Part shown: one piece after another, positions 27,844 through 28,809 of the stretch | Layout: every line of letters begins with the position of its first letter | How positions within the stretch are numbered: the stretch's first letter is position 1 | Assembly (NCBI GenBank): GCA_003241875.1 | Contig: QBLU01000021.1 | Span: 1-33,192 of the forward strand | Length of the DNA stretch: 33,192 nt | Direction: 5' to 3' | Source of the DNA: Alphaproteobacteria bacterium | Lineage (GTDB): Bacteria > Pseudomonadota > Alphaproteobacteria > Sphingomonadales > Sphingomonadaceae | The notes under the pieces: generated by a model | Seen by the model: the letters and a program-made list of their open reading frames with translations, nothing else | What the model was told of the DNA's origin: nothing | Databases searched by the model: none | Program-made: the position numbers and the translations under genes

Positions 27844-28809
27844 ATGGACGCCAGAACCGTGCCCGTCGTCATCATCACCGGCGCCTCGTCGGGCGTCGGC
27901 CTGTGGTCGGCGAAGGCCCTTGCCGATCGTGGCTGGCACGTCGTCATGGCCTGTCGCGACGTTGCCAAAGCCGAGGCTGCGGCCGTTGCAACCGGCATCC
28001 CGGCAACGGCGCGGACCATCATGCCGATCGACCTCGGTGACCTCGCCAGCGTCCGTGCCTTTGTCGCCGCGTTCACCGCCACCGGGCTGCGGCTCGATGC
28101 GCTGGTCTGCAATGCCGCGGTTTACCTGCCGCGTCTCGCCGCGCCGCTGCGGTCTCCCGACGGCTATGAAATCAGCGTCGCGACCAATTACTTCGGGCAT
28201 TTCCTGCTCGCCAACCTGCTGCTGCCGAGGCTCGGCAAAGCGCCGGCGCCGCGGTTGGTGACGCTGGGCACCGTCACCGCCAATTCGGAGGAGTTCGGCG
28301 GCAAGGTGCCGATCCCGGCGCCGGCCGACCTCGGCGACCTGCAGGGACTGGCGGCGGGTTTCCGCGCGCCCGTCGCGATGATCGACGGCAAGAACTTCAA
28401 GCCCGGCAAGGCCTACAAAGACTCAAAGCTCTGCACGATGATCATGAGCCGGGAACTGCATCGCCGCTTCCACGCCGACACCGGCATCGTGTTCGCCACG
28501 CTCTACCCCGGCTGCGTCGCCGAAACGCCGCTGTTCCGTCACGCGCCACCGCTGTTCCGCAAGATCTTCCCCTGGTTCCAGAAGAACATCACCAGGGGCT
28601 ATGTCAGCCAGCCATTGTCGGGCGAGCGGGTGGCGCAGGTCGTCGCCGATCCCGCCTTCACCGCGTCGGGCGTCCACTGGAGCTGGGGAAACCGCCAGCG
28701 CGCCGGTCGCGAGGCGTTCAGCCAGCCGCTCAGCGCCAAGGCCAACGACCAGGCCCGCGCCGCCCGGCTGTGGGACCTGACCGCGAAGCTGACCGGTCTG
28801 GAGGCGTGA
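27844..28809 (+). CDS. por: Light-dependent protochlorophyllide oxidoreductase (LPOR)
   Basis: 321-residue short-chain dehydrogenase that reduces the C17-C18 double bond of protochlorophyllide with NADPH and light. TGASSGVG (12-19) binds NADPH. The active site is YKDSK (Tyr191, Lys195). Cys37, Cys89, Cys197 and Cys224 fall at the positions of Cys residues conserved in cyanobacterial LPOR, with Cys224 in LYPGC matching the Cys near position 226. [52 protein letters not shown] and [11 protein letters not shown] are LPOR-specific and absent from ordinary SDRs. Length equals the cyanobacterial enzyme. It is isolated on the plus strand, with weak AGG 5 bases before ATG. No PpsR-type site (TGT-N12-ACA) was found upstream. 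LPORs are known in a few aerobic anoxygenic phototrophs such as Dinoroseobacter shibae. Confidence 0.93.

Follow-up and report, generated by a model that had tools for sequence, protein, structure and literature searches.

The open reading frame at 27844-28809 of the window, by which we mean the whole 33,192-nucleotide stretch of DNA analysed, most likely codes for an authentic light-dependent protochlorophyllide oxidoreductase (LPOR), as judged from its sequence. We consider it highly probable that this LPOR is functional and would reduce protochlorophyllide to chlorophyllide with NADPH and light, offering an oxygen-insensitive path parallel to the nitrogenase-like DPOR (BchLNB) in one cell. 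Bacteriochlorophyll a synthesis could then continue in the light under air, and the product of a BciB-like neighbouring gene would probably act next, reducing the chlorophyllide from LPOR or DPOR at its 8-vinyl group. In the genomes surveyed, LPOR accompanies DPOR and is no substitute for it. The relevant features of the window are:

27739-27843, no strand assigned: intergenic region, presumed LPOR promoter, divergent from a PLP-enzyme gene with an inferred start near 27738
27844-28809, plus strand: LPOR, 321 aa, assigned from TIGR01289, the match to 6l1h and the tree grouping with Sphingomonadales LPORs
28998-30224, minus strand: probable BciB (8-vinyl reductase; FrhB/HCAR family), 408 aa, with PF04422 and PF04432 and a 228-bit match to 5dqr
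30272-31348, minus strand: CrtC-domain lipocalin-like protein (PF07143)
31348-33177, minus strand: ABC-type permease

A role in carotenoid synthesis was considered for the gene at 30272-31348 and rejected: its product matches PF07143, but a permease gene adjoins it. We regard this product as a lipocalin-like protein that partners an ABC exporter, and the two genes at 30272-31348 and 31348-33177 are probably an exporter pair that does not serve carotenoid synthesis.

Identity of the LPOR gene

The frame at 27844-28809 translates into 321 residues with zero internal stops. Against the NCBIfam equivalog TIGR01289, the protein scored 478.3 bits (cut-off 331.35, E 1.2e-143) in a near full-length alignment that pairs residues 7-319 of 321 with profile positions 4-314 of 315. 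A profile search of the source genome gave 13 further TIGR01289 matches, all under the cut-off and the best at 71 bits. The seven top matches among solved structures are all LPORs, led by the Thermosynechococcus elongatus enzyme (6l1h, 459 bits). Five of these seven score 451-459 bits and two chloroplast entries score 343 bits, after which the next match drops to 80 bits. The frame stays open well upstream of 27844; the ATG at this position agrees with the start of the profile match and is the likely start codon.

The protein contains the segments TGASSGVGL, YKDSK (Tyr191/Lys195), LYPGC (Cys224) and SGVHWSWGN, and all LPOR segments named in the original prediction were recovered. Conservation was examined in an alignment of 93 LPOR rows comprising the window, 80 named loci and 12 relatives, five of which duplicate named-locus records. 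The residues of the NADPH motif TGASSGVG and of YxxxK (T12, G13, G17, G19, Y191 and K195) are each present in 93 of 93 rows. The prediction had also pointed to four cysteines at LPOR positions. All are present in the window protein, at 37, 89, 197 and 224, but only part of this observation is diagnostic: Cys224 occurs in 93 of 93 rows and Cys37 in 88 of 93, whereas positions 89 and 197 hold cysteine in 53 and 65 of 93 rows, which makes the four-cysteine test a weak one. In a figure legend of PMC7947762, the four LPOR cysteines are called conserved.

Variation at the two less conserved positions is patterned. Of 84 LPOR rows, 51 have Cys-Cys at positions 89/197, 17 have Leu-Ala, 11 have Asn-Cys, three have Ile-Cys and two have Cys-Gly; Leu89 and Ala197 always occur together in these rows, and the window protein keeps both cysteines. 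The Leu-Ala state requires four changes on the best tree, at least two of them forced by starred branches. We dropped the paired change as proof of coupling, because there are too few independent pairs to test it. The LPOR of Erythrobacter dokdonensis DSW-74 (L111) has Leu-Ala at these positions, and PdLPOR was active in both assays reported in PMC7947762. If PdLPOR is the L111 enzyme, Cys89 and Cys197 would be dispensable for activity.

The host and its photosynthesis genes

The window covers positions 1-33192 of contig C25 of the source genome (G000), which measures 3.82 Mb in 111 contigs and is 99.99% complete. Its genus holds Sandarakinorhabdus and Polymorphobacter records, in agreement with the sphingomonad host suspected beforehand. 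The prediction would have been refuted by a genome devoid of photosynthesis genes, but this genome contains a set of them. Family models identified the DPOR genes bchL, bchN and bchB, as well as acsF, hemA (5-aminolevulinate synthase), bchG, bchX, pufL, pufM, bchH, puhA, bchP, bchF, bchY, bchZ and bchC; ppsR is also encoded. The BchB protein scored 801 bits, under the cut-off of 912 of NF002790, which is a narrower model, and passed TIGR01278 (597 vs 490 bits). Thus, the suggestion that LPOR works alongside the oxygen-sensitive dark enzyme BchLNB fits the gene content, and the other option, that it works instead of DPOR, finds no support, since DPOR is present here and bchB in all 13 LPOR genomes of the family.

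The photosynthesis genes occur in two groups, each read over 40 kb, at about 60-82 kb of the 130.9-kb contig C45 and about 70-77 kb of the 131.9-kb contig C23. Because both groups lie mid-contig, their distribution over two contigs is not an assembly edge effect. Searches for the RuBisCO large chain and BchE gave no match in the source genome. PMC7947762 classes a bacterium as a putative aerobic anoxygenic phototroph if it has BchL/BchN/BchB, a type II reaction centre and AcsF and/or BchE, and lacks RuBisCO and/or PRK. Judged on the RuBisCO large chain, the source organism falls into this class.

Position of LPOR relative to the photosynthesis clusters

LPOR had been described as lying outside any visible photosynthesis gene cluster, and this holds: 19 query ORFs from the photosynthesis clusters of the genome gave no match in the window. 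The same queries matched in none of 13 LPOR neighbourhoods (the 33-kb window and 6.5-19 kb from 12 relatives), although the query set, with 16 ORFs named by family model, lacks bchD, bchI and bchO and can therefore undercount. In three genomes with few contigs, LPOR and bchB are on one contig at distances of about 1.8 (G108), 1.0 (G317) and 0.9 Mb (G276). Together with the lack of matches in the 13 neighbourhoods, these distances led us to reject the explanation that LPOR belongs to a photosynthesis cluster broken up by the assembly.

The named loci provide a wider view. Seven proteobacterial loci of the 80 have probed photosynthesis genes near LPOR (L114, L118, L128, L161, L164, L165 and L174). 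An eighth is L145, where bchI and bchD, both outside the query set, stand beside LPOR and bchO was recognized by eye. Such genes are also near LPOR in ten cyanobacterial loci (chlL in 10, chlB in nine and chlN in eight). In the group to which the window belongs, a location of LPOR outside the cluster is usual.

Distribution of LPOR, bchB and BciB

We surveyed 397 genomes of the family, counting LPOR matches over the cut-off and BciB relatives at E <= 1e-40. LPOR was found in 13 genomes, bchB in 78 and a BciB relative in 28. bchB is present in all 13 LPOR genomes, and LPOR is absent from all 319 genomes that lack bchB; ten of the 13 are from one genus, so these co-occurrence counts are not phylogenetically independent. 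LPOR is missing from 65 of the 78 bchB genomes and is thus dispensable for a phototrophic lifestyle in general. Within the genus of the window, LPOR and bchB are both present in 10 of 11 genomes, so that every bchB-bearing genome examined there (10 of 10) has kept LPOR; the remaining genome, G252, lacks LPOR, bchB and BciB.

The BciB relative shows a similar association. It occurs in 12 of the 13 LPOR genomes of the family, being absent from G108, and 27 of the 28 BciB genomes have bchB. The exception, G250, has a BciB relative and no bchB match in a genome that is 98% complete, which may reflect loss of phototrophy or an assembly gap. We also searched 24 hand-chosen LPOR genomes from among the 80 named loci. 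A BciB match was obtained in 14, and none in the ten others, i.e., betaproteobacterial G688-G691, Erythrobacter-type G692, G693 and G705, Gemmatimonas-type G697 and G698, and G702.

The BciB-like neighbour

LPOR and the gene at 28998-30224 are convergent and 188 bp apart. The product of the latter contains both the N- and C-terminal FrhB_FdhB domains (PF04422 and PF04432), and among solved structures it best matches 5dqr, the chloroplastic 7-hydroxymethyl chlorophyll a reductase (228 bits, about 390 residues aligned). It therefore belongs to the BciB/HCAR family of chlorophyll metabolism, which contradicts the initial description of LPOR as standing beside unrelated metabolic genes. No NCBIfam equivalog model gave a score over its own cut-off with this protein, so the name BciB derives from homology and from its company with bchB. 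The product is probably an 8-vinyl reductase. The BciB of Chloroherpeton carries out C8-vinyl reduction and has two [4Fe-4S] clusters and FAD, and BciA and BciB favour 8-vinyl chlorophyllide, the product of protochlorophyllide reductases (PMC4214422).

In 10 of the 13 LPOR genomes of the family, the two genes face each other at a distance of at most 1.6 kb. These ten are the source genome of the window, seven of nine relatives from its genus and the two g81 genomes, which represent another genus. Other reading frames intervene between the two genes in several genomes; in G167 (L070, about 8600-9200), the frames between BciB and LPOR resemble a toxin-antitoxin pair by eye. Around the pair in g81, probes for six other window genes found no match in the fetched stretch. 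In G286, LPOR and BciB are on separate contigs, and in G020, each of the two genes lies at a contig edge, LPOR closing one contig and BciB opening another. Because the genes converge, they do not constitute an operon.

BciB is in the fetched flank of eight of the 80 named LPOR loci (L099, L110, L117, L142, L145, L147, L155 and L170); three of these, L110, L117 and L147, coincide with contigs of G167, G339 and G379. When the count was restricted to the 51 loci flanked by 3 kb or more on each side, BciB was close to LPOR in 6 of 28 non-cyanobacterial loci and in none of the 23 from cyanobacteria. Locus L101 has no BciB in 6 kb on each side of LPOR, and the gene is elsewhere in its genome (G700). 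In the betaproteobacterial MAG L145, the order is BciB, hydrolase, LPOR, bchI, bchD; L169, a MAG that shares its organism name, gave no BciB match (G688). The LPOR-BciB pair is thus a local arrangement and not a general rule for LPOR. The literature searches turned up no description of LPOR and BciB as neighbours in these bacteria.

Descent of LPOR

An unrooted tree without SDR outgroup was built from 88 LPOR rows, i.e., the window, 80 named loci (the best 80 of 376 confirmed hits) and seven of the 12 relatives. The window LPOR groups with the MAG rows L100 and L103 (100/90) and then with L101 (99/83), which is the nearest row to the window by tree path. They are part of a 25-row clade (97/92) that is mostly Sphingomonadales and includes Sandarakinorhabdus, Polymorphobacter, Erythrobacter-type and g81 rows and one MAG labelled Gemmatimonadaceae (L129). 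The last groups with Sandarakinorhabdus oryzae (98/88); its bin is likely contaminated, or the gene was recently transferred. The 29 cyanobacterial rows form a clade of their own (99/95). In a second tree of 84 rows (the window, 80 loci and three relatives), calculated with the two cysteine columns removed, no starred set of at most half of the rows held the window. The original prediction had turned on placement among LPORs as opposed to generic SDRs, and the protein is placed with LPORs both by its HMM score and by the tree of related LPOR sequences, which was built without a generic-SDR outgroup.

Two placements are at odds with simple vertical descent. Polymorphobacter multimanifer (G286, L061/L140) belongs to the genus of the window, yet its LPOR clusters with those of Erythrobacter (100/99) and has no BciB beside it, which sets it apart from most of its genus. 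The G108 LPOR, together with L108 and L130, which are labelled Sphingomonadales, falls among Rhodobacterales (11 rows, 100/99). Purely vertical descent of LPOR in the genus is therefore not borne out, and the gene has probably moved between genera among aerobic anoxygenic phototrophs. For the G286 enzyme, this placement and the lack of an adjacent BciB are a hint of LPOR exchange between genera.

Upstream region

We searched the 300 bp upstream of LPOR for TGTN12ACA, which we take to be the PpsR consensus. It was found in none of 13 such regions, the window included. This absence says little because the chance expectation is about 0.02 per region (2000 shuffles), and it fails to support PpsR control of LPOR. 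The motif has 16 occurrences in the 80 kb around the two photosynthesis groups, some beside bchC and bchG frames, and two in the window, at 6415 and 30610. Inspection by eye showed a palindrome near CTTTGAGTCAAAG just upstream of LPOR in L066, L068 and L069, and also in L062 and L070; it is not in the window.

Alternative explanations

LPORs are members of the SDR superfamily, and Pfam recognizes adh_short and adh_short_C2 and nothing else in the window protein. It might accordingly be a generic short-chain dehydrogenase with LPOR-like motifs and another substrate. We regard this as very improbable in view of the 478 bits obtained against a cut-off of 331, where no other match in the genome exceeds 71 bits, the seven LPORs that head the solved matches, and the occurrence of the gene only with bchB across the 397 family genomes. 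Another possibility is a protein that is an LPOR by ancestry but has fallen into near disuse, the reaction being carried out by DPOR. DPOR is complete in the source genome, and the 65 bchB genomes without LPOR show that others in the family do without the light-driven enzyme. The intact frame, the invariant catalytic residues and the presence of the gene in all ten bchB-bearing genomes examined in the genus argue against such disuse, which we find improbable. Sequence is no guarantee of detectable activity, because SgLPOR was inactive in both assays in spite of its conserved residues (PMC7947762). We prefer a working LPOR parallel to DPOR.

Transfer from picocyanobacteria has been argued for non-cyanobacterial LPORs (PMC7947762), and LPOR and BciB might have been gained jointly from a cyanobacterium as a two-gene piece. 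The genes adjoin each other in the window and in genomes of another genus, and a single gene separates them in the betaproteobacterial MAG L145. The BciB-like protein, however, is 36-39% identical to its counterparts from five cyanobacteria and 67-86% identical to proteobacterial matches, and in a 50-row BciB tree the two groups stand at opposite ends of a very long branch. A warning about long branches accompanied this tree, and its bootstrap values were unsettled. For LPOR itself, identity to the 29 cyanobacterial rows is 64-72%. In the 23 cyanobacterial loci flanked on both sides by 3 kb or more, BciB was never found near LPOR; instead, chlL is near LPOR in ten cyanobacterial loci, mostly with chlB and chlN. 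Joint acquisition thus appears most unlikely. A more elaborate version of the preferred reading treats LPOR and BciB as a small module that is located away from the photosynthesis cluster and escapes repression by PpsR. Light would gate the branch from protochlorophyllide to 8-ethyl-chlorophyllide in air while the cluster-encoded DPOR is repressed or damaged by oxygen, and the vinyl preference of LPOR and the paired replacement of Cys89/Cys197 would be tuned to the vinyl reductase of the host. The chances of such a module are lowered by the separation of the pair in L101 and in most other LPOR loci, and we consider it unlikely. A lead in this direction is that LfLPOR prefers divinyl and PdLPOR monovinyl substrate (PMC7947762, Table 1), and that BciB is present in Loktanella fryxellensis (G696) and gave no match in Porphyrobacter dokdonensis (G692). 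The presence of BciB may be tied to the vinyl preference of LPOR, with only two hosts matched by our expansion of the names LfLPOR and PdLPOR.

Comparison with known systems

Bacterial LPORs of Sphingomonadales phototrophs are already known, and the published picture is not overturned. PMC7947762 (2020) describes 36 LPORs outside cyanobacteria, among others in Sphingomonadales and Rhodobacterales, reports that 10 of 11 LPORs tested were active in at least one assay, and cites two Sandarakinorhabdus species descriptions for phototrophs. Our analysis adds a small LPOR group from the Sandarakinorhabdus/Polymorphobacter lineage. It also shows that LPOR occurs only with DPOR (bchB) in the 397 family genomes, and in all examined bchB-bearing members of the genus. 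The BciB-like neighbour provides a handle on why aerobic phototrophs retain a light-driven enzyme.

The window LPOR is of the same family as the enzymes of the aerobic anoxygenic phototrophs Dinoroseobacter shibae, Erythrobacter and Porphyrobacter covered in PMC7947762, with DPOR co-present, and differs from them in adjoining a BciB-like gene. The window protein is one of a small group, with L100, L101 and L103, in which all four cysteines are kept; rows named Sandarakinorhabdus, Polymorphobacter and Erythrobacter instead carry Leu and Ala at two of these positions. With the T. elongatus LPOR (6l1h) it shares a near full-length match, the catalytic and cofactor motifs and the four cysteines. 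Unlike the cyanobacterial enzymes, it is found in an anoxygenic host, and chlL, which is near LPOR in ten of the fetched cyanobacterial loci, is not in the window. The neighbouring protein shares its domains and the 228-bit HCAR match with the BciB/HCAR family and, at 36-39% identity to the BciB matches from five cyanobacteria, represents the proteobacterial branch of that family.
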